A stretch of 64,000 nucleotides of DNA. Source: Hydractinia symbiolongicarpus. Taxonomy: Eukaryota; Cnidaria; Hydrozoa; Anthoathecata; Hydractiniidae. Shown piece by piece: positions 1,697-58,604 of this stretch; the first letter of the stretch is position 1, and each line of letters opens with the position of its first letter. The notes beneath the pieces are model-generated. The model was not told the DNA's origin and ran no database searches. It saw nothing but the letters and a program-made list of their open reading frames with translations. The position numbers and the translations under genes are program-made. The DNA is taken from positions 18,152,851 through 18,216,850 of the forward strand of contig NC_079877.1 of assembly GCF_029227915.1 (NCBI RefSeq), in the 5' to 3' direction.

Positions 1697-2431
1697 TTTA
1701 TATTCATTACGCATTTTTAAGTTTGTTAATTTCGCAATTAAAACAAGGTTTAAAATAAAATTAAAGAATGAAAAAACTAACTGAAATGATTCCTCCGCTA
1801 TATTAACCAATTAAATTATTCCATACGACGACTCTTTCAGAGAAATCTTGATGTTTCCAACACCACTCCAAAAAAGTCCAATATCAACTTTCCGAATCAC
1901 TTCACTAACTTTCCTCTACCATTTTCGTTAGCACGGTCCACTGGTAAAAAACTGTGTTAAATTACAGACCCGAACCTCGTCCATTGATTCTCGGAGGCCT
2001 TTTTATGTAAAAATCACGCCCGGGGCAAAAAAACGATGCGCAATGATTAAATCAAGAAATCATTGGGCATAATATTATCATTACGCACAAAGCAAAGTTA
2101 GAGAGACTACTAGAAATCTTGTTTAACGTCTTTAGTTAAGAACTTTATGCCTTTTTATAATTGCCAGGAAGGGGTAAACATTCCTTATATGGTATTTTGT
2201 GAAGGTCTTTGGCGCCAATTGGTCAATAATTCCTTAACAAGACAAGATTCTAGTAACAAACTCTTTTGCAGATCAATTCGTACTGGGAGAAGGTAGAATT
2301 TTGTTTTGCTATGTTTGTTTTTAATTTCTAAACACTTGTTTTACCATATTCTTGGATGAGAGACCACAGTGAGTATTTTTGGGAATGTATACTGTGTTTT
2401 ATCGTGTTTAGTTTGTCTAGACGGCTTAACA

Positions 2432-5121
2432 ATGAAAACAAAAAAACGTGCATCAAAGAGTGGTCGAAGAAAAAAGCAGGGTAGCAGAAAAGTTGCGAAG
2501 AAAGTTGTGGGCGCGTGGACAGAAGAGCACCTCCAGGAAGCGCTTCAAGAGTTCGATTCTATGCCGAATGCATCAGTCAGAGGCATAGCAAAACGTCATG
2601 GTATCAACGAATCTACGCTGCGATTTCGTTTAAAAAAACGCAAGGAAGGAGCCAAATTAGGAAAGTCTGGTCGGAAATGTGTTTTCGATGCAGAAACGGA
2701 GGCCCGGCTAGCTAAGTGCATTGGTGTTGTATGTAACCTTGGTTTTAGTCCTACGTTGGATGAAATTTTGGTAAGCTAATAGCTGTTTTTGTAAGGGTTT
2801 AAAACTGAATGTTGGAAATTCTGTCACTATTTATATTTGTATCATCATTTAATTTATTATTTAGGATCTTGTTGCCGAATACATCAAAGTCACAGGGACG
2901 ATTTCACTCCAGTTTAAAAATGGAAGGCCTGGTTTGGTGTGGATAAAGAGCTTTATGAAAAGAAACGGACTGAGTCACAAGAAGGCTGAGATGATTAGTA
3001 CTGCCCGTAAAGCAAACACATCCAATCCATTTATAATTTTTGATTTCTACGATCAATTGGAACAGGTAACATATGCGTCATTGACGGTACGCTTTTATAG
3101 GAAACAGCGTTTATAATTTGACCGTGCATGATGTATTGTAAAATGATATTTTTAGATCTTCGAGAAATACCCTAATCTGGATGCACAACGGATCTGGAAC
3201 TGTGACGAAAGTTCTTTCCCAACTGATCCATCAAAAGGGAAAGTTGTCTCCGTGAAGGGACAGCGTGCCCTTAAATTACGGTATGGCGCTGGGAGAGAAA
3301 ACATCACTGTACTCGGTGTTTGTAATGCAGCTGGAGTGGCACTTGACCCTCTTATTATATTCACTGGAAAAAATATGCAAAGTACGTGGTACGGGGACAA
3401 GGCTCTACCCAACACGTTTTACGCCAAGTCTGAAAACGGTTGGATGGACACGGAAGTTTTTTCCACGTGGTTCGCCAAATTCACTGAGGACGTAACAGAA
3501 AGACCATTGTTACTGGTGTTTGATGGGCACCTTACCCATATCAGCATATCTGTCATTAAAAAAGCATTGGAAGACGATAAATTATAATGAAATTCCCTCC
3601 ACATGTTACGGATGTCATGCAACCCCTAGATGTTGCATGTTTTGGACCCTTAAAACGTGCTTGGGAGAAGCGCCTCCATTTAGGCGTGACAACACATGGT
3701 GCTAAAAGCCAATTGACAAAGTCTGAGTTTGTCAATGAACTCTGTTCCATTTGGAAAGATGGCATGAAAAAAGAAAGCGTTATCAATGGATTTAGGAGTA
3801 CTGGAATATGGCCAATTGACAGAACCATGTATCCAAAGGAACGCTTGGACCCAAGATTGTTAGCGAAATATTATACGTGGAAACAAAGTGGTAAAGCTCT
3901 TGATTGGTCTAAATTGTCAGACGGGTACGTTATTTTCTTTTGTGACTGATAAAAATGGCTAAACCTGTTGAATAAACATCTTGACTGAACATTTTTGTAC
4001 TTTCAGACAAATCGATGAAGCTGCGGGTCTTGCGCAAAATCAAGTCTCGACATCATTACCACTGCCCGAATTGCAAAACCAAGCAGAATCTCCTTTATTA
4101 ATATCTAATACCACACCTACAACCACCCCTAATGTAAATATAACTCCATCATCTCTGCCAGGCGGAAGTCGTGATGAAACTAATGAGATGAATATCTTGT
4201 TAAAGCGGCTTGGACCATATCCATATACAGCATCTACAGGCTTCTGCTGGATTCCAAATGGTTGGAAGTTGTCACCAATTAACCAGTCCACCCCAAAATC
4301 GACTGAGGTATTTGAAGAGCTGTTCCTCAATAAAGTAAAAGGTTCAGTAGATCAGCCTAAGAAAAGAAGACAAAAGTTAGATCTTCGCGGAAAGGTAAAA
4401 TATTATTTAAGAATAAGTACATTAATGATTTTGCATTTCACATTAAAAATAACTAATTGATTGTCCATGTTGTAGGTTATTACGCAGAAAGAGCTGCTAG
4501 AAGAGCTTGAACGAAAAGCCCGAGAGAGAGAAGAAAGGGAAGCAAAGGCGTTGCAAAAAAAAGAAGAAAGAGAAAGGAAGAAACAACAAATTGCAATTGC
4601 GAGCAAAAAGGGAAAGCAGAAAATTACAATAAACAAGGAAGACGACGATGAATCAACAGATACACTGTTGTCAATGGAAAAAACGTGGAAGTTTTTAAAT
4701 TCGCCAACAAAAGAATGCGATGTGGTTGGTAAATGGTACGCATGCATTTACGACACCAAGAGAGGTCCTAGTTTGTACATAGGAAAAGCCCTCAAGCGAT
4801 TTTTGTATGATGAAAACGGTGTTGCTGCAGGATTAGAGATAGAATGTCTGCAAAAAAAGTTGGGGACAGCTGACAACATCCTTCGGGAAATAAAAAAAAA
4901 CAAGCGAGTTCGGAACAGCTGTAGGGGAAGATATCAACACCTTCGCTGTCCAAAATGTTATCTGTGGGCCGTTAACTGCAACTTTTTTGGGTGGTGACAA
5001 ATGGGAGTTCCCACAGTATCCTCAGGTTCGAGAATTATTCGAAAGGATAAAAAAGAAGAACAGAGAGGCAATGCATGTTTCGGAAAGATGCAAATGGGAG
5101 AGTAATTTAAATGAAATGTAG
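2432..5121 (+). pseudogene. Pogo/jerky-like transposase (CENP-B type HTH plus DDE), five exons, frameshifted
   Basis: Exons are 2432-2770, 2875-3065, 3156-3924, 4007-4394 and 4476-5121, with GT..AG junctions. The N-terminus is a basic, psq-type helix-turn-helix (IAKRHGINESTLRFRLKKR). A CENP-B-like second DNA-binding region follows across the exon 1/2 junction (GRPGLVWIKSFMKRNGLS). The DDE_1 endonuclease core is in exon 3: WNCDESS supplies the first Asp, LLVFDGHLTHIS the second, and PHVTDVMQPLDV is the conserved block after it. Exon 5 has a Glu/Lys coiled coil and an acidic segment. Two one-base frameshifts break it: one near 3575-3587, just before the PPHVTDVMQPLD block, and one in the A-run near 4893-4901, after which the frame resumes with GEDINTFAVQNV and ends at 5121. 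It was the source protein for the element defined by the 26-bp TIRs. An earlier in-frame non-ATG start is possible but ATG 2432 precedes the basic region directly. Confidence 0.85.
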
Positions 5122-20500: not shown

Positions 20501-23500
20501 TTTAAAATATTTTATGATTTCTTTATCCTTTTTAGAGATTTTGGCAATTTTCTTGGCGAATGTTAATGGAAGGATAAAAATCCTTGACATCAAACATTGA
20601 GAATTTATGTTTGTTTTTATTTTCAATTTTGTTAAACCATTCTATAACGTTCTCGGTACTTTTCCATTGATTTAACTGTAAAGCTTTTACCAATTTCTTG
20701 TTAATAGTTTCAAGGATTTCTTTGCTCATAGGTCCAAGTTCGTTTTTTGCCGGATTAATTAACCCTATAGGTGTGTTTTTTCAAAATTCTCTTTGTGATC
20801 TTTTAAAGTGATAAAACAGTTATTTTTAAAATTTATTTGTAATCTGTCGATAACAGTGGCGCATTTTAAAATAATTTAGCCTTTGTTTGTAACCTGTTTG
20901 TAAATATTGCTGTTTGTTTTTTGTAGGCTGATGTAATGGAATTTGTAATAATTTACTGTAGTCTTCCTTGGTAAGACTATACGTGTTTGAACTTTAATAA
21001 TCAAAAAATGTTCCCCGTATAAGCCCAATTCAAAAAACTGTAACCTCTGCATCAACGAAAAATACGAAATTTTAATGTTTAAAGCCAAAAACGAGCTAAA
21101 GCCAGTTTTCCACTAGGCGGATTATTCCGTGTGGAGCGGAGCGGGCATTGTTGTTTTTATGAAAATACGCGCGGAATTAAAAGTTGAACCGGACTCGACT
21201 TTTCCGCCACTGTAAATTCCGCGAGCCAATCAAAATGCTTGATTTCGTGTGTTTTACATAAAAATTAAAATAGCTGAAAGCTGAAAGGAAATAGTGAAGC
21301 AGTGATCATTGTGAACCATTGTGACAAGAAAAAGGGAAATAAGATGTCTTTCGCAGAATCTAGTCAGATTTTGATGTCAAACACGCCAGTAGAGAGTCAA
21401 GTTACAGAATTTGACAAAGAATTGTTTATAGAGGAAGTAAGTAGAGCTTAGCTAGCTAGCTAGTTTATTTTTCTAAAGCTAAACTTGGTTTCTGTTTTTT
21501 TGTTTGCTATAGTCAAATAACTATTTCTAAAACATTTGTAGGTTCGGAAATTTCCATGTCTATGGAACATTTATTCTACTGATTACAAAGACAGAAACAT
21601 CAAAAATAATGCATGGCAAGAATTGGCAATAATATTTCAAAAAGATTGTAAGTAAACCCCTAATATCTCATAGCTACATATATATTTGCTGTTGTTTTTA
21701 TTTTCAGAAAGAAAGTAAAATCAGATAATTTTTGGAATCTGATATTAAATATGTACTGTGTATATATATATGACTTATTATTTGTAGGTGAATTCCTTCA
21801 AAAACAACTAAAATATTAAAAAGACAACCTGAAAAAATGTCTCGACAGAAGAACAAGGATGATAAAACCAGGTGCAGCTGCTTCGTCGTTACCAAAATGT
21901 AACATTTTGAACAGATGTCCTTTCTTTATGAAAGAGCACCTATGAACTTCGCAACTGAAAGCAATGTATGGATACAGAGTAAAGAAAATACAGAACAAAC
22001 GTGTTCAGAGGAAAGCGTTGATCGACCCCCTGATGTAGATTTGTTCACACCGCCACAATCTCCTATGATTTTTAACAAAATTACGGACAGTGGCAGCGCT
22101 ACTGTCACGGCAAAGCGGGAGAAAAAAAAACGTAGTGAGAATGCAGAAGGAAATAGAATTTTGAATTGGATGCAATAGAGAAAGAATTAAAAGCTGATGA
22201 TAAAGAAGAATGTGAAGATAGTCTTTTTTGCCGTAGCCTGGTGCCCACTTTAAGAAAATTATCTGCCAAAAAGAACAAAATGGCAAAAATTAAGATTTCG
22301 CAGCTGTTGTTTGAAATTGAGTTTGATGAGGCATGTGAATAAAACTAATTTTCTCTTTAACATTTTTTATATAACATATCATTTTTTACAGTATTTGTAT
22401 GGATGTACATTTTCTATACATTTTGACATAAATTATTCAGTTTTTATTTTGTCCTGTACTATTGACAATATCCCACTGCCATTCTACTGCTCCTTTATTG
22501 TTAAAATAGCATTTAAATTCATCCCGAATTAAGGCTGCCTGTTTTGAATAATTGTTTGAACTACAATTTGTTAAGTCCTGAATACCACTTATACTTTCAG
22601 AGTCTTTTCTCCATTCACCTGGAATAATATTGTTTTGGCTTCCTCTATCAACATAGTTTTCTGGGCAGTAATTATAAGTATCATTTGCATTGGATTTGCA
22701 TTAAGTAGTTGTGTAATGCCACCACTGCTTTAGTTATTAATACAACTTTGTCGACTTTACTTATGATGGGTCGGCGAAGAATTCGAAAGCGGCTTGCAGC
22801 AATTCCAAATACATTTTCTACTACTCGCCGCGCTCTTGAGAGCCTATAGTTGAATACTCGCTTTTCTTTTGCCAAGTTTTGAAGTGGGTACGGTTTCATC
22901 ATGTGAGGTTTCAGCCCAAAAGCCTCATCACCTATGAAAGTAAAAGGCAACACACGATTCGACTTTGGTAGTTTTGATGCTTTTGAAATATTAAGTAGAT
23001 TATTCTTAATGCTATAGCCAAGATTGCTGTTCCCATACACACTACCATCACTTTGTCTTCCTGTATCTCCAACATCTACCATTAGAAATTTATAAAGTGC
23101 ACTGCACACTGCCATAAGCACAATACTGTGTTGCTTTTTTTAATTAAAAAATGCTGAACCTGATCTTGCTGGGGCCTGCATCACAACATGCTTTCCATCG
23201 ATTGCCCCTAAGCAATTTGGAAAGTTCCATTTTTTGTAAAATTCCTGAGCTACATGTTGCCATTCTTCTGGGGAGTTTGGAGGTTTAAGATAGTTTTTAT
23301 CAGACAGAGCATCCCATATGGTCCTACATGTTTCAGGGATAATCCTTCCTACAACAGTTGAGCTCATTCGAAAGTTTGAGGCAATTGTCACTTGTGCATC
23401 TCCAGTAACTAAGTATCTCATAGTAGCACATAATCTTTTACTTGGTTTGATCGATTCTCGCATTCTTGTTTCTTTCTTTACAACAAGGGGAGCTACCCAA

Positions 23501-26500
23501 GACAGTAACGTTTCCAAATCAGAAGGAGACATACGTATTAAAGTATTGGAAAAACAGTTGATGATCATATAGCTTCAAATCCTGTATCAGTAAATGAAAC
23601 TCCCCCTTCTGCTTTCGTTCTTGGTAAATTTGGCGTATCCAGAATCTTTTTTTATATTTCCTATTATTTATTTCATTTTTTAATGCCAACAATTTCAATA
23701 GTTTAACTTTTTTAAGAAGAACTAATCGGCGACTGAACTTCATGGTGTTGTTTGCATAATGGCGCCGTGCTTAGTGAAAAAATAAAATGCGTTCTGCGAG
23801 ACGGAAAATATCCTCTGCGCTGAACGCTCCGCACGGAATAATCCGCCTAGTGGAAAACCGGCTTAACATCGAAGTGCAAACACCAAAACAAATTCTTGTT
23901 GGCCAATTTCGACGACAAAAGAAGTCATTGTTTATCCGTGACAACATGATATTGAATATTAAACGTTAACTTTGTAAATTTTTAGTCGGTTGGCTGAAGA
24001 TTGTGTTCATAGAACGCATAAAACTTTGAGTTTTAAACAAAGTTGTTGTTTTTATTCGTCACACAATTTTGCTACAAATAAAAAGCCATACCCTTCTGCC
24101 GAAGACGTGTCTCAGTGGTTAATAATTCGTGACACTATAACATAACGATCTTGAGTTTTTCCAAATCGCAACAACAAATCGCAAGCCCGTTCCCATTATC
24201 AGGCGAAGTCGCAATGCATTATGGTAGTTGTAGTAAAAACAAAATAAACATGGCTAGCCCTACAGGCGAAAAAATGGAAAACAAAGAAACATCTCCTCTT
24301 AATGAACCTGAAAACAGTTTTTATCAAAACTTTTTACAACATTCTAACACATCTGTACCCCAAAACGCCCCAAAAACAAGAAAAATCCAGGGTTAAGAGT
24401 ACTGTTGGTGGCTTCACTTGTTGTGTTCCATTATGATACAACAACTTAAAGAAACACAAGGACTTGTCGTTTTATGTAATTCCAAAAACTCCTGAGTTAC
24501 GAAAAATAGGACTAGGCAAGATTAGTCGACAAAATTTTGTACCAACAGATGGACACGGAGTATGCTCTGAACACTTGGAGGGTGGTAAAAACTTATATGA
24601 ATAATATCCTAACAATTGTTCCAAAGACATTAAAACTAAAAGTATACAAACCTAGGACTTCTAATAACAGTCTTGGAATTAAAAGAAAGCTGCCTGAACC
24701 ACAAGAAAATAAAAAAGTGCCAGAGCTTACTACTGAGGAACTACTCATGTAAGAGATTCAGGAGCTTAAAAGCAAAGTGTTACATTTGGAGTCAACAAGT
24801 TCAAAAAAAAGAAAACGAACTACAAAGTCAGATAACCGAATTATCAAACACTTTAAACAAAACAAAGTTTACCTTAGATCGTTATAAGCACAATAAAGCA
24901 CATTTTAAATTTTATACAGGACTTGAATCATATGAACTATTTTGTGTTGCTGTTGAATATTTACAACCTGCTGCTAGCTGACTAAATTTTTGGGGCTCTA
25001 TCACTGTTGAGAATAAAACAGAATCAAATTAAATCAAAAAAGGTCGCTCAAGAAAATTAACACTGGAAGAAGAGTTTTTTTATGATTTTGGTATGCTTGC
25101 GATGTGCTTTTCCTGTGGAAGACTTGGGAGTGAGTTTTAATGTCGCCAAGTAATATTTGCCATATTCTGATAACATGGATTGATTTTTTACACACAAAAT
25201 TAAGCGCTCTGCCAATATGGGCCTCTAAACAAACCGTAATAGATACTATGCCTAAATGTTTTAAGGACTTGTATCCTACAACACGATGCATAATTGACTG
25301 TACAGAAATATTTACTGAGATGCCAACATCTTATCAAAGTATGTCTGCCACCTTTTCTATTTACAAGCATCACATAACTGCTAAAGGATTAGCTGGGATA
25401 GCACCTAGTAGACAAATTACGACTTATATTCAGGAAGATTAAGTGATCAAAAAATAACACAGCATTGTGGGATTGTAAAACTACTAGAACCAGGTGATAC
25501 CCTTATGGTAGACCGAGGCTTTAATATTAACGATGACCTCCCAGAAAATGTATCACTTAATATACCACTATTTATGAAGGGGAAATCACAGTTGTCTTTG
25601 ACTGAAGAGCTGGAAACGAGACGTATAGCTTCACTACGAATACGTGTGGAACGGACGATCGAACGAATAAAGAACTATCGAATACTTTAGTCAATTTTTC
25701 AATTGTCAATGGCACCAGAATTAAACAAAATATGGGTAATATGTTGCTACTTAGTAAACTAAACATCCGTGCAAACATATAATATAAAAGTTAGTTGTAC
25801 ATAATATTTAGTTGTATATAATAATACATATACCACATGTAAAAAACAAAAATGTCTTCATTCAGAAAAAATCTTAGGAGCCAGAAAATCGAAATAAAAT
25901 GTTGTTTGTGGCGCCGTAGATTAGTGGTTATAGCTCTCGTACTCTGTGCGGGAGACCGGGGTTCGATTCCTCTTAACGGCGATTCAACATGGGCGAGTGA
26001 ATGTTACCATAGCCCCGGGTTAACCCAAGCCATGTGAGGGAAATTGGGAAGATGGCACACTGTGTGGGCCGTTGGATGTTGCCGGGAGTTGTCTGGTAGA
26101 GAGCGGGCTCTAATTGGGTCTGCGTAGCTCAAAATGAGCATTAAATACTCTAGGACTCTGCATCTACGCCATGGCCCCTCCTGGAAATAATAGACAGGGT
26201 ATATCCCTCGATATTTGTGAGGCTAGCCATGTAAAATATGCACATCTCTATCTCTCTCTCTCTTAATTTAGGTAGCATTTTTTCTTTCCATAGCTTCTCG
26301 TCGAACTGAATGGTTTACACATATAAATTTTTTCCGGTATAAACAATAAAGTCTAGTTCAGTAAGGTCACAAATGCCCATAACGCCTTGACATTGGTAAA
26401 AATACTGATGCTTCAGTTTAAGTTCTGGTTTACCATTTACCATATGCATAAAAAACTTTTGTCAGTGCAACATTCCTCAATAGTTAATAAACGTTTGGAA

Positions 26501-34068: not shown

Positions 34069-34449
34069 TGTTAATTAGTGGTGTTTTTATTCTACAATGT
34101 TTCTACAATGACTTGTATTAACACATTATTTGCCTAAACGGCTGACGAAGGAGGCCCAACACACCCACCAATTAAATTTGAGGCTACCTACAGACTTGTT
34201 GCTTCTACCTCTGGACTAAAACCCTGACATAACATTAGCCAAAAGAAATGCCAGGGAAACCTTGAGGCAGAAGCAATTTGTCTGGTTGTGTTGTTTTGCG
34301 TGCCCCCATGACAGTTGTGATGCAGTTGTCTTTAGTTGCATTGGAGACGTCCATGATATCTCGATGTTTCGATTCGATTCCTTTGCACCACGGTGATAAA
34401 TTGAATCTCACATCCATGTAAGTAGTGTCTGTGGAATTATTAACAACAA

Positions 34450-35330
34450 CGAGAGTAAGTTAGAAAATTGGAAAGAATTTCGAGAAGAATTACTCACATC
34501 TGAAACGATACTCAGCCAGAGATTAACACAGGTGAAGAATATTTACAACGAAATACTTGAATTAGCTATGAACGATGATGATGCGATTGACAGTTTAAAT
34601 GATTGTTATGTATTTGAATTAAAGGTTAAAAAACACTTGAATAATTTAAAGGAAACTTGTAAAAGAACAGTTGAAATTGAGCCTGTTCTAAGAGAGAGAA
34701 GCAACTTGCACAAAGAAACTATTAGATTAACCAAGTTAGAAATTACTGGTGACTGTACAAAATGGTTAGGTTTTTATGAAAGTTTTGAAGCCTCGATTAT
34801 AAGTCACAACTAAGTAACATTGAGAAATTTAATTATTTGAGGTGCTATTTAGAAGGAGACGCTTGAAATTGTATATCTGGATTATCTCTTTCTAATAAAA
34901 ATTACGAGGAAGCATTGAAGCTATTGCCCAACAGATTTGGAAATCCACAAGTAATTATAAACTCACACATGCACGAATTATTGAAGATGAAAAGAGTTTA
35001 CAACGATCGCGACTTAACAGCTTTCGACGACTCTACGATGATATAGAATCTCATGTACGAAGTTTCACCTTGGGTATTGAAGGAAAGGACTATGGCTCTT
35101 TACTCAATCCGATCATTATGGAAAGATTGCCGCACAAATTTAAATTGACTGTTTCTAGGAATCTGAAACAAGAGGTCTGGGATATTGACAAACTCCTCGA
35201 ACTAATAAATACCGAATCCTACCGTTAACTCACACAGAACAGAAAAGGATCTGAGTAACGACATGGGTAAGAAACGTTTTGATTTTTCGCATTCATATGA
35301 GCCCTCTTCTGGCGCGTCTTTGTTATCTGA
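34450..35330 (+). pseudogene. BEL/Pao gag-like protein (DUF1759 type), with stops
   Basis: Helical gag blocks NWKEFREELLTSETILSQRL, VLRERSNLHKETIRLTKLEI, TKWLGFYESFEASI and SNIEKFNYLRCYLEGDAL match the DUF1759 organisation of BEL gag. They are followed by MHELLKMKRVYN, DLTAFRRLYDDIESHVRSF and MERLPHKFKLTVSR. Two or three stops (34,811, 34,866, 35,226) interrupt it. Gag proteins build the virus-like particle. The last part (KKRFDFSHSYEPSSGASLL) is cut by the LINE insertion. Confidence 0.7.
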
Positions 35331-35334
35331 ATCC

Positions 35335-35862
35335 AAACTTCATTTGTTGACTAGCAGAGTCTTGTCAATTGAGTTAAAAGGTAGGTTGTATAAGGCCTGT
35401 GTAAGAAGTGTTATGTTGTACGGTAGTGAGACATGGGCAGTGAAGCAGGAAGATCTTGACAGTTTAGAAAGGAATGATATGAGAATGGTTAGGTGGATGT
35501 GTAACGCCAGTCTGAGAGACAGAAAGAGTTCAGATAAGCTAAGAAGCAGGCTAAGTCTCTGTAGAATTAAAGATGTTATCCAGATAAGAAGATTGAATTG
35601 GCTGGGGCACTTGGAAAGAATGGAGGAGGATAATTGGGTAAGAAAATGTAGAGACTTGATAGTTCCTGGGGCAAAGCCTAGAGGCAGACCGAGAAAGACT
35701 TGGCAGGAGGTTATAAGGACAGACTTGATACAGAGGAAGTTGAGTTTAGATCTAACAGTCTAGATCAGATTGGAAGAGGGTCATTAATATACCCCGTCCA
35801 ACCCATGCTAGCATGGAAAACGAACGTTAAGCCGAGAATGATGAATGGGATGATGATGTTGA
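35335..35862 (+). mobile_element. 5'-truncated LINE insertion (RT C-terminal end) with GATGATG tail
   Basis: An intact C-terminal reading frame contains LYKACVRSVMLYGSETWAVK, MRMVRWMCNASLRDRKSSDK, RLNWLGHLERMEEDNWVRK and KPRGRPRKTWQE. This is the thumb/connection end of a non-LTR RT very common in marine invertebrates. The stop at 35,763 is followed by a short 3' UTR and a GATGATGATG tail. The good frame suggests a fairly recent insertion into the BEL copy. Confidence 0.8.
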
Positions 35863-35863
35863 C

Positions 35864-37605
35864 ATTGGATTGAAGGCGAGTTGGGAGAGCATCTTAAAGG
35901 AGATGGAGAGTTTGGGAGTTGTTGAGGTTGGTCGTAGGATTGAGCATAGTGACGAGGATGATGAAGTTGTGAACAAGGAAATGCAAGGATTTAGTGATGC
36001 CAGTCAGCAGGGATATGGAGCTTGTGTTTACGTTAGGTCTGAATGGAGATCTGGGAAAATTACTGTTAAGTTACTAATTTCTAAATCGAGGGTAGCACCG
36101 TTAAAATCAGTTACTATGCCGCGTTTGGAATTACTAGGAAATTTGTTTTTGGACTGATTCAACTATCACTCTCTCATGGATAAAGGCGACATCAAAGGAG
36201 TTTGTACCGTTTGTTGAAAATCGTTTGAAAGAGATTAGAAATAACAGTGACGCTGGGAACTGGAATTATATTAATGCTGAAAAAAATCCAGCAGATCTTC
36301 TCACTCGATGGGGAATCACCACTTTAAATTTGGCCGAAAGCAATCTTTGGTGGGAGGGGCCAACGTTTTTGTGCGCGAAAGAATACCAGCTGCCACAGAT
36401 AAAAGATCATGATTTATCACTTGAGCATTCAAATGAGCTGAAAAGAAGTAAACAAGTAGTGTTGCATAATTATACCGACATAATTAGTATCAACAATGTA
36501 ATCAATTGTGATAAGTATTCCAAATTCACACGATTGGTAAGAATTACCGCATGGATGTTAAGGTTCATTAAAAACATTAAAAGAAAAAAAGAAGACTGAA
36601 TTTTGGAGCAAATTCTACGATCTTGTGAAATAGTCTCTGCGGAGGAGCTCTTATTAAAGCCAACAAGGAGAAGTTCAAGTTGGCAAATGATAACACAGAA
36701 AAAGATGTTATGTTTTTTATTGAAGAAAAAGGTTTATTACGTTGCAGGGGTCGACTTGTAAACGCACCGTTACCCGTTGAAACGATATCGCCTATACTGA
36801 TTGACCGAGATCACTCGTTAACTAAGCTAATTATCATGGATATTCACTGTAAGCTAAAACACATCTCTCAAAAACAAACACTTACCGAATTCCGACAGAG
36901 TTATTGGACCAAAAGTTCTCGTAGTTTAGTGCGAATTTTGTTACATCAGTGTGTTTTATGTATATAAGCGTTTGAAATCACAACCTTTTCGTTACCCTGA
37001 GATTCCCCCACCATTATCAGGGTACAGACTCAGTGTCGCTAGAGCTTTCGCCGCAGTAGGAATAGACAATTTTGGACCTCTGTACGTTAAAAACATTTAC
37101 AACAATGCCAATGAAAGACCAGTTATGAATAAAATGTGGTTAACCTGGTACACCTGCGCATCGAGCAGAGCTTTGGTGTTAGATCTAGTTCCTAGGCCCG
37201 ATTCGTCATCATTTATTAGTAGCTTTCGAAGATTCATTTGGAGACGTGGTTGTCCAGATCATATCATCGCAGACAATGGTAGTAATTTTGTTTTACGTGA
37301 TACGCAAACTTATATTTCAAATCTAAAAATAAATTGGCATTTTAACCTCCCTCTTGGTCCATGGCACGAAGGTTTTTTTGAAAGACTTGTGCGCAGTACA
37401 AAGAAACTATTAAGAAAGGATTTAAGGTCAACTAAACTCTCATTTGAAGAGATGCAAACAGTTTTGTATGAGATCGAGTGTATATTAAACAATCGTCCAC
37501 TCACGTACGAGTATCCTACCGAGTTTAAGAGTTGTTTGTCTCCAATCCATATGCTTTTTGGACGTAGACTTAACTTGTCTTCTAATTCAACCACCCTTAA
37601 ATCAC
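35864..37605 (+). pseudogene. BEL/Pao RNase H and integrase, frameshifted
   Basis: RNase H: QGFSDASQQGYGACVYVRS (first Asp), SKSRVAPLKSVTMPRLELLG (Glu region), then WTDSTITLSWI and NPADLLTRW. Integrase: an HHCC-type zinc region ending HQCVLC (about 36,945-36,962) and the DDE core with AAVGIDNFGPLYV, CPDHIIADNGSNF and [18 protein letters not shown]-terminal stretch [10 protein letters not shown] follows. Frame breaks occur at about 36,156, 36,599 and 36,965. All three catalytic acidic residues of the integrase are still present. Confidence 0.85.
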
Positions 37606-38982
37606 ACGCAGCATTGATTAGAAGAACAGCCTCAGTATCATCGTTGTCGAAAATGTCATGCATCGCATAGACGGCTGCTTCAACACCAGCATTTTGACCA
37701 GCACAAACTTGTAACGAACCTGCTGCTTTACGTCATTTTTAGATATGTTTATCACAATCTTCCCAACTATTCTACGAAGCACTCCACCAACACCAATTGG
37801 TCGTAAACCAGGATTTTTGTTTAACGGTATTAAATGGCAAGCATCAAAAGCTTCAAGCGGAGATCTATCAGATTCTGGAATAGATTCAATACACAGCTTC
37901 TTCGTTAACTCGGCTATGGCTTTACGTAGATCAGTATTGGTTGTACCAAATGTGGAAGAGCAAAGTATACGTCTCCATCCGTCAGCATCCAAACCTGACG
38001 GACCAGAACCACCTTTGGTATACGTGGCAGCTTTCAATACCATGTCTTCATCAATGATATCAAAAACAATATCATGGATTCGCTGTGACGGTTGATCTAT
38101 TAACGTATCTTCGCTAAGATTCCCCTGATCTGGATGTTTTTGTTCCAATAATAATAATGTCTCGTCGTTAAGTGGAAGGATACCTTGCGTCATGTTGTCA
38201 GTTAATAATCGCAAAGCACTGTTGATATTTCCCTTCTGCATGAACAATCGAAACTTTTTCGAAATAGATGAAATATCACTTTTCGGATTTGGTGGTTGAA
38301 GTCTTTCCTGAATAGCGACAGCTTCATCAAAAAGTTTTAACAATTCGCCATTCTCCCATAGTGTCAAGCGCCGTTCTAAAGCTTTTGTATGGTCTTTTGA
38401 TTTCGACTTCTTGCTGGGTTTTTGTAACAACAGTGAAGGCATTACATGAAGTGCTTTTAACGAAATAGGTTTCATCGGCGAATCGGCGATCCAAAGATTT
38501 ATAAGACGTGTCATTTCTCGAATAAACGATTTTCCAGCCGCACCAGAAGGTAGTAAAAACAAATTCTATTTCCAATAAACTATTCTTTCATATGTATAGT
38601 CTAAATCATGCGTAAATTTTGACCCTGGAATGTTCTTCCAATAAAAATTTTCATTTACTACAGTTGTTGGAATAATTCGTTCGGCAGCTGGTTGGCTTGA
38701 AGAGGTTGTAATTGTCGCTTCATTTGTTTTTCGTAAACATGTTCTAAGATGAATATTCAAACCTTTATATGTGGTAAAAGTTCTCGTATTACAGGAGTTG
38801 CATCTGAATGATGTAGAAGATGTCGCAAATTGAATTGGTTGCGCGGAACTGCCATTTGCGTTTGAATTTCGATTCGATTCGTTATTCACTAGCGGTCGAT
38901 TTAAAGTGGCCATAACAAGTACCAGTAATTTCGCGGCAAAGTTAATCTGCTTAATACGTTTAGTCACGAACAAAAACTTCAC
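37600..38982 (-). pseudogene. Retroelement protein: N-terminal C2H2-like finger and RT N-terminal half
   Basis: Starting near 38,982 and reading on the minus strand, a C2H2-like finger (FRCNSCNTRTFTTYKGLNIH) is followed by YWKNIPGSKFTHDLDYTYER. An in-frame TAG at 38,566 interrupts the protein, which then resumes as LFLLPSGAAGKSFIREMTRL and later LKALHVMPSLLLQKPSKKSK. The RT part has GGSGPSGLDADGWRRIL and HLIPLNKNPGLRPIGVGGVLR, then after a frameshift near 37,690 the AVLLINA block where the first catalytic Asp would be; here Asn occupies the usual Asp place. It stops at the junction with the BEL copy. This RT lineage is abundant in corals and hydrozoans; I cannot place its class with certainty. 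Confidence 0.65.
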
Positions 38983-50563: not shown

Positions 50564-52939
50564 AAAACCTCGTTACATGCAAAATGTGAAACTAAAGTAA
50601 AGACATTTCATTAAATATTTGGAAAAAATATTCTGTACTTTTTGTTACCGGATTTTTTATACTTGTTATTATACTTTTGTTGTTTGGTTTACTTTAATAT
50701 TTATTTATATTTTACGGGTAAATATTGTAAAAATATGTGTGGATATTTATTTGTATAATTTGTATTTATATGTGTATACAGTTTTTTATTCAGTCTCAGT
50801 ATTTCAGGATATTCTTGCACATTGAAACACAAAATTGTTATAATAGTTAATGTACAGAATCATGTACCAGCAACCACTTTGTAAATTTGCAATCAACTTT
50901 ATTATAAAGTTGACTTTATATGACTTTATACTAGGTTTACAAATACATTATATGCCAAATCAAGGGTAAGGCAAGTTGAAATAGCCCGTTTCCCAAAATA
51001 TAATCGCTTTTTTTCTGTTTTTTAATCTAAATAATTATTTGTTGTGTGAGCATCACGTAAGTTAACATCATCAAATAAAACAATTGTGAGTGAACTCATA
51101 GCAAAATTCTTGATCATGTTTGATATTGTACGATTTTTTTCTACGTAACCGTTATGCAACTTTTCTTTAAGGCATTTTTGTTTTTCAAATAATTAGTTAC
51201 TAAATATTATTTTCAGACTACATATCCATATTTTTTCTGTTATAGCACGCCTGTCACGATTTAATAGCTATAATACTTTTATTTTGACGAAATATATTTA
51301 GCGTCAACAATTCCTCTTTAAATCAAAATGTCGCGAATAATTAATTAATTCTGCTGAATATAGGTTTAGTGCCACGCGCTTGTGAAATTATAGAGAAAGA
51401 AATGACGTAACTATTAAAGAGAAATGTTAAATAAGAACAAAGATGGCGGATAAAGTAAAAATAATCTCCGATCTCCATAGCACCCCGAGAGCTCTAACTT
51501 CGGTTCTCTTTAAAATCTTAACACGAGTTTTACAAATCATACAGCTTCAAAAAGGTGTGCGGAATTTTTTTGGTTTTGAATATTTCTCTTTTGACAGCAG
51601 CTAGAAGCAGCATGATATGCTAATGAGATTTCTTTCAAAACAAACAAAAGGATATTGTAAGAAAAATGCGGAAAAAAAGTTTTCCGCACGCCCTTTTGAT
51701 ACAACCAACCCAAGGTTTGATTTAAATCAGAAGTCAATGAAAAATCGTAAGTTTGTAAAAAGTTGGAGCTCGTGAAAGCTACTATTATTCTTTATTGCAT
51801 ATTTATAAGTGACTATATCTGCTGACTCAGCAATTTAAGAAATTGAACAAAACTGCCACGTGCCTAAAGACCAATATTTTCAGGAATTACCAAAAAAAAT
51901 TCTATAGGTAACACGCTGACTGAAATATCCATCTGTGTGAACGGCTGAAAAAGGGTTACTGCCGCCTACCAGCTCAAAAGTCAGTTTGCTTATAAAAAGT
52001 ACAATCGCCATGTTTTAACATGTTTTTATTGTAATATCGTAAAAATCGGCTTGTTTTTATTCTTCTCTGGACATGTAAAGTATAATACAGTTAGTTATAC
52101 TGCAGTTAGAAAACCTTTAATACAACCGGAAATGTTTTTAGGACTGCAACTGGTTTGTATCAACTAATTTTCTCACTTTCGAAACACCATTTTAATCGGA
52201 ATCAATAGCTTGTTTCTAACGACATAATGAATTCTGAGTATATAAAAAGAAAATCGCATGATATTGGCTTTCAGCTTAATGTTTCGGTTACATTGTTTTG
52301 CATGCTCGATTGAACATTGGATGTTGCTGCAATGGTGTTGAATGAAGGTGAGCTATCAATGCAAGTGTAAACAAATTAATTGGATGCACTTTTGCGAAGA
52401 AAACTATTGGCTGCAAATGTGGTTTATTAAGATAAGTGTGCGATGGAGCGTGGAAGAAATATACTTTTACTGAATAAATTGCCTAAAAAATGATTTTTTC
52501 ATGTAAAACAAAGCTGTAAAAAATATAATTATTACGTATATAATTTTTCCGCTTAATAATTGGAAACCCATATTTTCCTCAAAAAAATTCTTCTTCGCAG
52601 TTTCAAATTAGAAATGGCTGTTTTTGTGACGTAATCTATACATACTATATAATGCACAATCAGAATACAAGGTGAAATTACGATGTTTCTTTTTTTTGAG
52701 TGTTGCTCATTTTGAATGTCGCAATGCGCTTGATTTGAAACTAACATCAAATTCCATTCTGGTTAAAAGAATGAATAAAGCAGTTTGAATGCGCCAAGTG
52801 ATAGACTTGTTATGCTTTTGATTTGCGCATGGTTAACTCAGTAGCGCGTGCAAGATATAGCTGGATGCAGGTTTTGCTGCCTCTCTCAAGTACTTCTCTA
52901 GCTGCAACTTGATTTTCCACCCAAACACACGGCATCACA
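50564..52939. other. Intergenic region between the unrecognised gene and the SNAG gene
   Basis: AT-rich, with only short low-complexity ORFs. It probably contains the 3' UTR of the upstream gene (first few hundred bases) and the promoter of the SNAG gene. I saw no strong TATA box or TIR pair. Confidence 0.5.
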
Positions 52940-55900
52940 ATGCCGAGATCGTTTTTGGTTAAGCGAAGTCCTGGTGGAAACGAAGATAGAGAAAAAAAAG
53001 GTTAGTGAGCTTCCTGAGTGGATATAAACCATTTCCTACCACATTCTTGTATTGTTTTTCTTTTTAGTAGATACACTATCATATGAAATACAAAAAGGTA
53101 GCGAGCTCGAATACCCATCGCAATATCTGGAATACGCTGCAGCTTTGTTAGCTTTGGGTCGAAACAAAGACTGGGGCACAGATTATGAGTTAGAGAAAGC
53201 TTATTGGTTTGACATATCCCCGAATAACGTGTCCAGCATTTTGTTTGAAAACAAGACTTCTTGTATTTCTAACGAAATTGACGTGAAAACAAAAAAAAAA
53301 AGTAAAGGAAAGCCTAAGGAAATTGAAGAACATAAAGACGATGTTGTTAGCGACCAATCCAAGCATGCCCAGTCGAAGCTATCAGAAAACCTGGAGGAGC
53401 GCTTACAGCAAATGTTAAGGTGAGAAACATTCGTACATGATTTTTGTTTCACTTTTATCATGTATTTACCATAATGTGTATGCATATCCTTTTATAGTGA
53501 AGATGAGATTGTGATAACGAAAAATATTTGCCAGTTCTTAGAAAATAATGGAATGGGGTATCACGATATAGCAGATGAGACTGGGTTGAGCAAAGAAGAT
53601 GTTCAAGGGTATATAGAGCTAACGAAAATTTTTACTTCTGACAACAAACGTGAATTATACAGCTGGTATCTTTCGAAGATACTACGACCGTCGAAAAATG
53701 GTAGGTGTTTGTTAACCATGTAATAGCACTAAAATGTGGGTTTTGTGGTTCAAGCATTTCTTATGGTTCTAAAATTTCATCTCTGTCAATTGAAAGAAAA
53801 TTCAGGCTTACTTAGACCTTTGAAGGTTTAGTACTGCCCGCGCTCTTCTAGCTTTCGCATATGCGGATTAACATTTTCTGTTCGTGTTAGCGCCCCTTTC
53901 ACTGTTTTTGTTGTTTTGAACTTCCTCCCTCAACATCGTTTCCATGGGGTTAGTATTTTTACATTGTCATTGTCAACCTCGTTCCCAGGGCATGTTTTCC
54001 AGAATTTTTTTATCACATCGAGAAGTCTAATACAAAATACTAAACAAACCCCGAGGACGTAGTTGTTTACGTTATTTAGTCGCTATAACTTATAACTTAA
54101 ACTTAAGGTTTTTTAGTTCACCAAATTTCTCCTTCTGAGAAATTAATTTCTCTTCGTAAATGTTTCACATTGACTATGTTTGGGCTGACCATTTTAATAC
54201 CTTAACCCTATTTTAAAAGGGGGTCTCTTTTTTATAAAATTAAGGAAATGAGAAATGCTATGAAACTTGGCATGGTATCTAAGCAAAAATGAGAAAGTAA
54301 TTTGACATCAAAGAATCAATGCTGAGATCATTATTTTTACTAATCTCATAATTTTTCCTAAATTGATTTTTTTTTAATTTCCAAAATTTTTCTTACCAAC
54401 TCTGACAAGCACCTAGCTATATCTCGTAAAACTATACCTCTATGGTAAAACAAAGAAAGTGGAACTCAAACTTTTTAGCTTATTCCTTATGTAGAACAAA
54501 AATTATTGAAAATTGATCGATGGGGTCGTAGGATTACCCGTCACAACAAAGAAAAAAATACAGTGGAATCTCTCTCTCTCGACTACTCTTTATCTCGAAC
54601 TTCTCTCTATCTCAAACTAAAGTCTCGGTCCCTTTGTGGTCTAAGGTATTTTCCTTTCTTTATCTCGAACTTTCTCTATCTCGAACAAATTTTTTGGTCC
54701 CTCGCGAGTTCGAGATAGAGAGATTCCACTGTAGGGTTAAAATTTTGTAATTTTTGTAAAAATTCAGGAAGTCAAAATCCTGTAATTTAAGTTGGCAACT
54801 CAAATTTGCGAAATTAAATACTTGCCAAAAAATTGGTGCTCGTAAAATTTTAAGTGATATTAGTTCATCCATTTTGAGTTGGAGTTCATTTTTTTTAGAT
54901 TTGCTAACGCACTAAAAACAGGTACAAAACTTACTTTCAATAATCTTTTTTATTTTCAGCCGACGAAAGTTATACGTGTTACAAATGTGGAAAGATTTTC
55001 ACCTACAAAAGTTACTTGGAACGTCATATCAAATATGTGTGTCCAGATAGCACAGGTCGAACGTGGAAATGCACGTTTTGTGGGAAAGCTTTCCAATATC
55101 CATGTTATCTTCGCCGACACATACGAAGTCACACAGGTTTGTCGCTTAGTTAAACACCCAAACGAAAAGTAAAGCAAATGTGATGCACAGGGAAATTGTA
55201 GCAAAAAAACCTAGATCGAAAGTATTTGCTGCATTGTTCAGAATTGAGAGTTTTTTATCGAAAATGGAGCAAAACGCTGTCACAATGGCAGTATTGTCTG
55301 CAAACTGGGATCGGTGATGGTTCCAGTTTGCAGACGATACGGCATGATGTATTCCCAGCAATTCTATGACGGCTATGGTTGACTTAACCAAACGCGTTTT
55401 TTAAATCTAACAAGGTGATAACACAGATTTTTTACTTTAGTCTTGCTTTCCCAAAATCCTTTTTGGAGATTGGTTCCGATGTAATCATTTTTAGGAACGA
55501 AATGGTAAAATCTATTTCGAATTACTGAAGTGAAGACTTTCGACAGAACAGGTTGTAAGAGTAATTGGACGAACGTTCTCTGTTTTTTTGGGTCACTTTT
55601 TGTAAGCAAGTACAGTTATTCCGGATTCACACACTCTACGGAAAGCCTTTTCTTTCTAAGCGGTTTGGTTAATGTTGCTTAGACGGAAACGCAGAATAAG
55701 AGATTTTTTAAACGCTGTTATACTAACTTGGTCGATTGGACAAGGTGATGCGGAGGACTTCATTATCGTAATAACCTTGGTGATTTCTGTGTAGGTCGGT
55801 GGTTTGATGGCAAATTCTATAATAGGATTTGTGAATGCTTTTATCCATAAAGGATAAAAGCATTCACAAGCATTCGTCAGTTCTTTTTCAGACAGAATCT

Positions 55901-58604
55901 TTTGAAAATAGTTTTTGAAATCACTTTCATTAAATTTAGGCTTAACTTTCTCTATTTCCAGTACTAAAACTCTCTGACAATATTTCCAAAAGTTTTTACA
56001 GTATCTGCCTGCCTGATGGTCAAAATCCTTCTTTGTTCCTTGGCTTCTTGTTGTTATTTTGAGTTACAAGAGTTGCGTTATAATAATAATAATAATAATA
56101 ATTTCTTCATGTTAATTGTACCCATTTAGGAGAATCACCATACAAATGCGATCAATGTGACCGAGCTTTTGTTCGTTCAACAGATTTACAAAGACATATA
56201 CGAAACCATACAGGCGAAAAACCTTACCGATGCTCACAATGCTCCAGAGCGTTCGCTAGGTCTACCGATTTAAAAAGACATATGAGAACGCATACAGGTA
56301 GAAAATTCATATTCACCGCCAGGATTTAATAATCTTTAATTTGAAAATGCAAACTGGCTAGTTTATAGTAATCTACCATATAAACTGCGTATTTGTTGAT
56401 GCTACAGGAAGTATACATTCAGTATTTACACCTGGAATGAGGAATGATGAATGGGGGCGACAGTGTGTGTGTGTGTGGTGTGTGTGTGTGTGTGCGTATG
56501 TTGTCTGGCTATGAACATACGAATTTGTCCGTAAAACTTTATGACTTGTTTTGGTAGCTTCACTGGTACATCCTGTTTCCAACATTAAACCAATATTTTA
56601 CAACGAGTCTTCTGTCCAACATTAAACCAATATTTTACAACGCTCCTCTGTCCCACATGTAACAATATTTTACCACGAGACCTCTGTCCCACATATAACA
56701 ATATTTTACCACGAGTCCTCCGCCCCACATGTAACAATATTTTACCACGAGTCCTCTGTCCCACATATAACAATATTTTACAACAAAAAATCTCTGTCCC
56801 AGATGTAACAATATTTTACCACGAAGAACCTCTGTCCCACATGTAACAATATTTTACCACGAGACCTCTGTCCCACATATAACAATATTTTACAACGCCC
56901 CTCTGTCCCACATATAACAATATTTTACCACGAGACCTCTGTCCCACATATAACAATATTTTACCACGAAAAACCTCTGTCCCACATATAACAATATTTT
57001 ACCACGAGTCCTCTGTCCCACATGTAACAATATTTTACCACGAGTCCTCTGTCCCACATATAACAATATTTTACAACAAAAAATCTCTGTCCCAGATGTA
57101 ACAATATTTTACCACGAAGAACCTCTGTCCCACATGTAACAATATTTTACCACGAGTCCTCTGTCCCACATATAACAATATTTTACAACAAAAAATCTCT
57201 GTCCCAGATGTAACAATATTTTACCACGAAGAACCTCTGTCCCACATATAACAATATTTTACCACGAGACCTCTGTCCCACATATAACAATATTTTACCA
57301 CGAAAAACCTCTGTCCCACATATAACAATATTTTACCACGAGTCCTCTGTCCCACATGTAACAATATTTTACCACGAGTCCTCTGTCCCACATATAACAA
57401 TATTTTACAACAAAAAATCTCTGTCCCAGATGTAACAATATTTTACCACGAAGAACCTCTGTCCCACATGTAACAATATTTTACCACGAGTCCTCTGTCC
57501 CACATATAACAATATTTTACAACAAAAAATCTCTGTCCCAGATGTAACAATATTTTACCACGAAGAACCTCTGTCCCACATGTAACAATATTTTACCACG
57601 AGTTCTCTGTCCCACATATAACAATATTTTACCACGAAAAAACTCTGTCCCACATATAACAATATTTTACCACGAGTCCTCTGTCCCACATGTAACAATA
57701 TTTTACCACGAGTCCTCTGTCCCACATATAACAATATTTTACAACAAAAAATCTCTGTCCCAGATGTAACAATATTTTACCACGAAGAACCTCTGTCCCA
57801 CATGTAACAATATTTTACCACGAGTCCTCTGTCCCACATATAACAATATTTTACAACAAAAAATCTCTGTCCCAGATGTAACAATATTTTACCACGAAGA
57901 ACCTCTGTCCCACATGTAACAATATTTTACCACGAGTTCTCTGTCCCACATATAACAATATTTTACCACGAAAAACCTCTGTCCCACATGTAACAATATT
58001 TTACCACGAGACCTCTGTCCCACATATAACAATATTTTACCACGAGGTACAGAGTGGTGACGACGCCGGTACAACAACTTAAGCTCCCAGATTACTTTAC
58101 ATGATTTTAACTTCGACAAGATTCCATGGCAAGATTGAGCTCTTCGCTATGTGCCTATGCGCTATATGGAGCCTAAAGCTCCGTCATGATATATTGGTTC
58201 GGTAACGTTAGGTACTTTTCAGGTGTAAGATTTATAACAGTTGCATTACTTGCATCATGAAGAGAGAACACAGGGGTAGTTTAGATTAGCGTACAATTGG
58301 GTGGAACGAGGCGATGTTACGTAATTTATCTATTACAAAAAGCATATTACAGTATCGAGCAACTTAATCCCAACCTTTTTTGTATTCTTGCAATCATAAA
58401 GTTCAAAGAGATAATTTTGTTTTATTCCTTAAAGACAAAAAAGTAAGTAATTATTTTTTTTTGATTTTAGGAGAAAAGCCTTACAAATGTTGGCAATGTG
58501 GAAAATCGTTTTCCCAAAGTGGAAGTTTACAGACACATTTACACACGCACAACAAAGAGGCTTCGAGTAACCGGAACATGAAAAAGAGAACAAGTGGTTG
58601 TTAA
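52940..58604 (+). CDS. SNAG / HNF1-type POU-specific / C2H2 zinc-finger transcription factor, six exons
   Basis: Exons 52940-53000, 53068-53419, 53498-53700, 54960-55136, 56130-56297 and 58471-58604 join in phase to 364 residues. Residues 1-9 are MPRSFLVKR, a SNAG motif as in Snail, Gfi1 and Ovo proteins, which recruits LSD1/CoREST-type repressors. Residues ~128-205 match the atypical POU-specific domain of HNF1: [20 protein letters not shown] against HNF1 [28 protein letters not shown] against [23 protein letters not shown] against KRAALYTWYVRK. No HNF1 homeodomain follows. Instead there are five fingers: a C2HC one (C212, C215, H228, C233), then four C2H2 starting at C243, C271, C299 and C327, linked by TGESP/TGEKP. 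Residues 21-127 are a novel segment with a basic-acidic linker ([17 protein letters not shown]). The start fits because SNAG must be N-terminal. It is probably a sequence-specific repressor. Confidence 0.88.
53001..53067 (+). other. Intron 1 of the SNAG gene with tandem TAGTAG acceptor
   Basis: The 67-bp intron ends TTTTTAGTAG. Splicing after either AG (53067 or 53070) keeps the frame and adds or removes a single Val, a NAGNAG-type alternative acceptor. Confidence 0.6.
54561..54731. mobile_element. 171-bp pogo/Tigger-like MITE with TA target duplication
   Basis: CAGTGGAATCTCTCTCTCTC at 54561 is matched inverted by GAGATAGAGAGATTCCACTG ending at 54731, with TA on both sides. Internal TTTATCTCGAACT motifs are repeated. 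The CAGTGGAA..CTCGAA pattern is that of pogo/Tigger-type MITEs. It is in intron 3 of the SNAG gene. Confidence 0.9.
55160..56060 (-). pseudogene. LINE RT fragment in intron 4 of the SNAG gene
   Basis: On the minus strand in several frames: [19 protein letters not shown] (about 55,745-55,800), then [20 protein letters not shown] and LQKGFWES, then LDLKNAFG (about 55,385-55,410) covering RT motifs 1 to 3. Stops are frequent. It lacks the YADD region. Confidence 0.7.
56070..56103 (+). repeat. (AAT)n microsatellite just before exon 5 of the SNAG gene
   Basis: TAATAATAATAATAATAATAA directly precedes the short region leading to the exon 5 acceptor at 56,129. Confidence 0.85.
56463..56497 (+). repeat. 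(GT)n microsatellite
   Basis: Interrupted TG run in intron 5 of the SNAG gene, left of the satellite. Confidence 0.85.
56565..58048 (+). repeat. ~37-bp satellite array with 112-bp and ~332-bp higher-order periods
   Basis: Around forty copies of CTCTGTCCCACATRTAACAATATTTTACCACGAG-like units fill most of intron 5 of the SNAG gene. Variants differ in the last bases (ACCACGAG, ACAACAAAAAAT, ACCACGAAGAA). Three variants form a ~112-bp higher-order unit; pairs of these plus others recur every 332-333 bp (for example starts near 57,056, 57,388, 57,721 and again 57,168, 57,500, 57,833). Minus-strand ORFs through it are only repeat translation. Confidence 0.95.

Follow-up and report, generated by a model that had tools for sequence, protein, structure and literature searches.

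Results

Positions 52940 to 58604 on the + strand of a 64,000-nucleotide (nt) stretch of the Hydractinia symbiolongicarpus genome (hereafter the window; contig NC_079877.1 of RefSeq assembly GCF_029227915.1, positions 18,152,851 to 18,216,850) hold what is probably a protein-coding transcription-factor gene, in which a SNAG-like N terminus is followed by a POU-specific domain (POUs) of the HNF1 kind and by five zinc fingers. As predicted from the sequence, six exons splice into a single open frame of 364 amino acids (aa) plus stop; all five introns have GT-AG borders, and the phases are consistent across all six exons, as the preliminary description of the locus had it. An in-frame stop, TGA (52910 to 52912, + strand), begins 30 nt before the start codon, and reading by eye finds no ATG between the two. 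Exon 1 (52940 to 53000; 61 nt, ending in phase 1) encodes the SNAG-like MPRSFLVKR and 11 further residues. Exon 2 (53068 to 53419; 352 nt, phase 1 to 2) carries an uncharacterised segment and a lysine/acidic linker and ends in the presumed first POUs helix, and exon 3 (53498 to 53700; 203 nt, phase 2 to 1), the counterpart of HNF1A exon 2, holds POUs helices 2 to 5. The zinc fingers occupy the remaining exons, all likewise on the + strand: fingers 1 (C2HC) and 2 in exon 4 (54960 to 55136; 177 nt, phase 1 to 1), fingers 3 and 4, which share RSTDLxRH, in exon 5 (56130 to 56297; 168 nt, phase 1 to 1), and finger 5 in exon 6 (58471 to 58604; 134 nt), together with a basic tail and the stop TAA. 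Introns 1 to 5 measure 67, 78, 1,259, 993 and 2,173 nt, respectively; introns 1, 3, 4 and 5 are of phase 1, and phase 2 occurs only in intron 2, the one common to HNF1. The guanine-cytosine fraction is 0.394 in the pooled exons (0.36 to 0.417 in single exons) vs. 0.282 to 0.367 in the five introns. The locus is presumably transcribed.

The MPRSFLVKR motif lies at the extreme N terminus, at the first ATG after the in-frame stop, and is the sole match (1 of 1) to a loose SNAG pattern in a six-frame scan of the window; we take it to be a SNAG motif on the strength of its likeness to the consensus. In Snail, SNAG is reported to be a nine-residue N-terminal motif that works via cofactors including LSD1, with Arg3 and Ser4 important for cofactor contacts (PMC4507178). 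Residues 1 to 117 as a whole gave no match in the Protein Data Bank (PDB) up to an E-value (E) of 10, a single sub-threshold Pfam match (E 0.08), and no match to HNF-1_N; the HNF1 family has an N-terminal dimerisation domain, and a short helical motif could escape such detection. Residues 22 to 92 (53070 to 53282, exon 2) have no convincing domain match, one segment looks helix-turn-helix-like by eye, and a structure model of the same residues was uninformative (predicted local distance difference test score of 40).

The POUs region, residues ~126 to 205, matches the Pfam HNF-1_N profile at 31.3 bits (E 3.4e-7) when residues 1 to 208 are searched and at 30.7 bits (E 5.1e-7; profile positions 107 to 174 of 175, 68 residues) when a 91-aa domain piece is searched alone, the profile’s cut-off being 29.7 bits. 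In the PDB, the top three of five matches are HNF1 sequences (HNF1-beta and HNF1-alpha; E 0.002 to 0.004) and the remaining two are unrelated (E 0.45 and 1.2); for the part encoded by exon 3 alone, three of three matches are HNF1 proteins, at weak values (E 0.06 to 0.6). Alignment with HNF1A extends over 66 residues without a gap, with 14 identities (21%), and its BLOSUM score of 82 was reached by none of 100,000 shuffles (mean -56). BLASTP against a human HNF1A DNA-binding fragment gave 36.2 bits and E 1e-8, again gapless with 14 of 66 identical, and against a human HMBOX1 fragment it gave no POUs match. The homeodomain part of the HMBOX1 fragment is identical to PDB entry 4j19 over 113 residues, and the 66 HNF1A residues were taken from the PDB match, with a numbering that agrees with all seven contact residues reported (PMC11382887). 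The canonical Pou family is not among the four Pfam families matching residues 1 to 208 at E <=10, under filters that drop most matches above 0.1, and NCBIfam returned four families for the same residues, all sub-threshold.

The identities with HNF1A include L123 and, in the helix-turn-helix core, D135, T137, G138, L139, L162, Y163, W165 and Y166 (HNF1A numbering), which are likely to be core residues. Modelled alone, exon 3 forms four helices (residues 140 to 154, 159 to 166, 170 to 182 and 188 to 198) approximately where HNF1A helices 2 to 5 align: the second and third modelled helices open with the counterparts of Gln130 (α3) and Gln141 (α4), respectively, that of Asn149 (α4) falls within the third, and the fourth starts one residue past the counterpart of Lys158 (α5).

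The introns that flank exon 3 provide a further line of comparison. HNF1A introns 1 and 2 are reported to follow c.326 and c.526, and HNF1B variants described as c.344+2, c.345-1 and c.544+1 place the equivalent introns after c.344 and c.544 (PMC12469521), so that in each of these genes exon 2 is 200 nt long, beginning in phase 2 and ending in phase 1. In the Hydractinia gene the intron before exon 3 has phase 2 and lies at coding nt 413, and the one after it has phase 1 and lies at coding nt 616; in HNF1A these positions correspond to c.326 and c.529. Exon 3 thus starts in the counterpart of HNF1A codon 109, at the exact nucleotide and phase, and ends 3 nt past the c.526 equivalent with its phase unchanged (203 vs. 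200 nt). By hand arithmetic, the chance that an intron falls exactly at one given nucleotide is ~0.5% (5 introns in 1,095 coding nt). Because sequence, intron position and predicted helices agree, we regard the resemblance as real homology with the HNF1 POUs and not as that of a look-alike.

Retention of the domain does not extend to its DNA contacts. The HNF1A POUs is reported to touch DNA through Gln130, Arg131, Gln141, Ser142, His143, Asn149 and Lys158, with interface residues that are predominantly positively charged (PMC11382887). Their counterparts here are Y159, H160, K170, E171, D172, E178 and N187, which means that none of the seven is kept and three are now acidic, and the net charge over the 66 aligned residues is -6 as opposed to +5 in HNF1A. 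Together, the missing contacts and the negative charge argue against base reading of the HNF1 type. Between sequences this divergent, however, such a loss does not stand out from random columns (P 0.17 for none of the seven kept, and 0.09), and on these values we dropped it as a statistically significant signal. A DNA specificity set jointly by a POUs helix and the zinc fingers, as envisaged in the preliminary description, consequently finds no support in the contact residues, though their loss is by itself no rarer than in random columns.

The five fingers span residues 212 to 233, 243 to 263, 271 to 291, 299 to 319 and 327 to 347, with zinc ligands complete in all five and a terminal Cys ligand in finger 1. 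Fingers 3 and 4 both place R, T, D and R at helix positions -1, 2, 3 and 6, which under the zinc-finger recognition code would presumably favour GCG-like triplets. Among PDB chains the array is closest to generic finger arrays, ZNF568 first; SNAI1 (E 7.9e-23) appears lower among the best 60 of 282 chains, with many arrays above it. Pattern match, Pfam and PDB searches of the spliced protein therefore agree with the order of SNAG, HNF1-type POUs and five fingers described before from the sequence, including the placement of MPRSFLVKR at the N terminus and the likeness of fingers 3 and 4 in RSTDLxRH.

No homeodomain was found in the spliced protein among the best 25 of 39 Pfam families listed (the last at E 0.094), in a search that does reveal homeodomains in the HMBOX1 and HNF1A fragments, nor was a hidden one found in the six open reading frames (ORFs) searched around the exons. 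Four of these lie in intron 3, a fifth runs antisense within intron 4, and the last lies downstream of the stop.

The longer introns contain repeats and a possible element remnant of their own. A 1.46-kb minisatellite (56591 to 58046) fills most of intron 5, with a basic unit of ~37 nt by eye and computed periods of 74, 112 and 334 nt. Intron 3 harbors a probable miniature inverted-repeat transposable element (54559 to 54733) that begins and ends in TA and has 24-nt inverted repeats, 96% complementary and 127 nt apart. A 135-aa antisense ORF in intron 4 (55656 to 56063, - strand) looks by eye like a reverse-transcriptase fragment, with no supporting Pfam match. Elsewhere in the window, ORFs at 2360 to 4460, 22681 to 23574 and 34400 to 37670 resemble transposase or retroelement remnants by eye alone.

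Discussion

In light of the features described above, we lean toward a gene assembled by shuffling from a SNAG exon, an HNF1-derived POUs and zinc-finger exons, in which the fingers would choose the DNA and the POUs would not act as an HNF1-type reader. Exon 1, the exon 2-3 unit and exons 4, 5 and 6 all join at phase-1 introns and could therefore be exchanged without damage to the frame; the HNF1A exon that follows the POUs exon likewise begins in phase 1 (526 mod 3 = 1). Exon shuffling at such introns would have brought together the SNAG exon, the POUs module of exons 2 and 3 and the finger exons, either by finger exons taking the place of homeodomain exons or by entry of the exon 2-3 unit into a gene that already joined SNAG and fingers, routes that would each keep the frame. 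The phase-1 junctions between modules and finger blocks are what exon shuffling predicts and lend plausibility to the shuffling origin that had been suggested for this locus.

CoREST is a partner of LSD1, and the free SNAG N terminus would recruit a co-repressor, most likely of the LSD1-CoREST type; given that LSD1 is among the cofactors through which the Snail SNAG motif reportedly works (PMC4507178), the protein would naturally be expected to repress. The five fingers would select the DNA site, two similar G/C-rich triplets being read by fingers 3 and 4, and the POUs, its helical core kept and its HNF1-type base reading lost, would more likely bind partner molecules or further copies of the same protein, or touch DNA weakly. 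We would go one step further with greater hesitation, at somewhat less than an even chance: that recombination in phase-1 introns captured the entire POUs exon of HNF1, which subsequently lost its HNF1-type DNA contacts and became a non-reading module in a family of SNAG zinc-finger repressors.

Several observations weigh against this interpretation. With the full protein as query, the HNF-1_N score drops to 29.0 bits (E 1.7e-6), below the cut-off, and even the domain piece scores low in absolute terms, at 30.7 bits next to 154 for the HNF1A fragment and 111 for the HMBOX1 fragment. Fold searches with the exon-3 model listed other helix-turn-helix proteins, HNF1 not being among the matches listed, and the contact loss is of a size that random columns at this divergence also produce.

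The POUs might instead read bases with changed specificity, so that the protein would recognise a composite site, part of it a half-site for the POUs and part a site for the zinc fingers, as first proposed for this locus. The core identities are kept, the model of exon 3 has helices roughly where they should lie and K170 replaces Gln141 of HNF1A; moreover, because the loss of contacts is no significant departure from random columns, a changed mode of DNA binding may still apply. Against a reported HNF1A interface that is mostly positive (PMC11382887), the absence of all seven contacts, three of them now acidic, and the net charge of -6 nevertheless make such reading rather unlikely in our view. 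The absence of any relationship to HNF1 is a different matter: were the segment a helix-turn-helix of other origin, similar to HNF1 only by coincidence, the identity of only 21%, a weak second helix-turn-helix profile (HTH_Mga, E 0.008) and the non-HNF1 proteins returned by the fold searches would be explained, but the Pfam match at E 5e-7 over 68 residues (profile positions 107 to 174), the HNF1 identity of the top three PDB matches and the intron position and phase common to HNF1A and HNF1B would not, and we give chance resemblance very little credence.

It is equally important to consider whether the exons belong together. The 1,259-nt intron 3 separates exons 1 to 3 from exons 4 to 6, and the two sets could represent two genes or transcripts: a SNAG or HNF1-like gene, of which exons 1 to 3 would form the 5′ part, and a separate zinc-finger gene. 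Both sets nonetheless lie on the same strand, phase 1 matches exactly over the exon 3/4 junction, and the acceptor TTTTTTATTTTCAG is a good one; exon 4 encodes no Met and therefore offers no in-frame ATG start of its own. Nor was a homeodomain found: the spliced protein has none at E below ~0.09, and none appeared in the ORFs that were tried, namely one downstream and, in intron 3, 4 of the 11 that lie on the plus strand and reach 30 aa or more. We consider a division into two genes improbable. As for a decaying or unexpressed copy, the window’s ORFs that resemble mobile elements by eye and the 1.46-kb minisatellite of intron 5 would suit such a fate, which we regard as most improbable for six exons without a stop or frameshift, five of five GT-AG introns and zinc ligands in all five fingers.

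If the interpretation favored here holds, the presence of an HNF1 POUs exon, together with an HNF1 intron, in one gene with SNAG and fingers would reveal a module moving between transcription-factor classes, and the phase-1 introns between the modules would show the route of its transfer. The gene would be a natural test of whether the fold of a POUs survives the loss of its DNA contacts, and a non-reading POUs would mean that a domain long regarded as DNA-binding has been put to another task; HNF1 itself is a regulator in human liver and diabetes, and the exon in question is common to it and to the present gene.

Each of the modules is known, and their combination is apparently new: we know of no named family with the order SNAG, POUs and fingers. 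The architecture was not found in the open-access literature, judged by titles and abstract starts among the matches listed, which is weak evidence of absence, and public gene sets of cnidarians or other animals may contain it unremarked. Prokaryote genome contigs gave 35 pattern matches and no relatives, and positions 52940 to 54000 gave no match to phage records; these collections hold no animal genomes and therefore have no bearing on the spread of the architecture.

The HNF homeobox class is described as having a POU-like domain N-terminal to a highly atypical homeodomain (PMC2211742), and with no homeodomain found in its spliced protein we place the Hydractinia gene outside that class. 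It resembles HNF1A and HNF1B in its POUs, which aligns with that of HNF1A over 66 residues without a gap, in an intron before helix 2 at an identical codon and phase and in a second intron 3 nt away and of the same phase, and differs from them in its SNAG start, its five fingers, the loss of all seven contacts, the lack of a detected homeodomain and the lack of an HNF-1_N match in residues 1 to 117. HMBOX1, of the Hmbox family in the HNF class, likewise has a POUs of the HNF1 kind (111 bits to HNF-1_N), but, in the fragment aligned with HNF1A, retains Gln at positions 130 and 141, Ser at 142 and Lys at 158 (HNF1A numbering), all of which are lost here. With the SNAG zinc-finger repressors Snail, Scratch, Gfi1 and Ovo the gene has in common the SNAG start and the C-terminal C2H2 array; to our knowledge none of these carries a POUs. 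Nematostella Snail in particular is reported to combine SNAG with five fingers (PMC4507178), as the present protein does. ZF-class homeobox proteins are described as joining zinc fingers to a second helical DNA-binding domain (PMC1779571), an arrangement that is mirrored here, except that the partner domain in that class is a homeodomain and in the Hydractinia protein a POUs.
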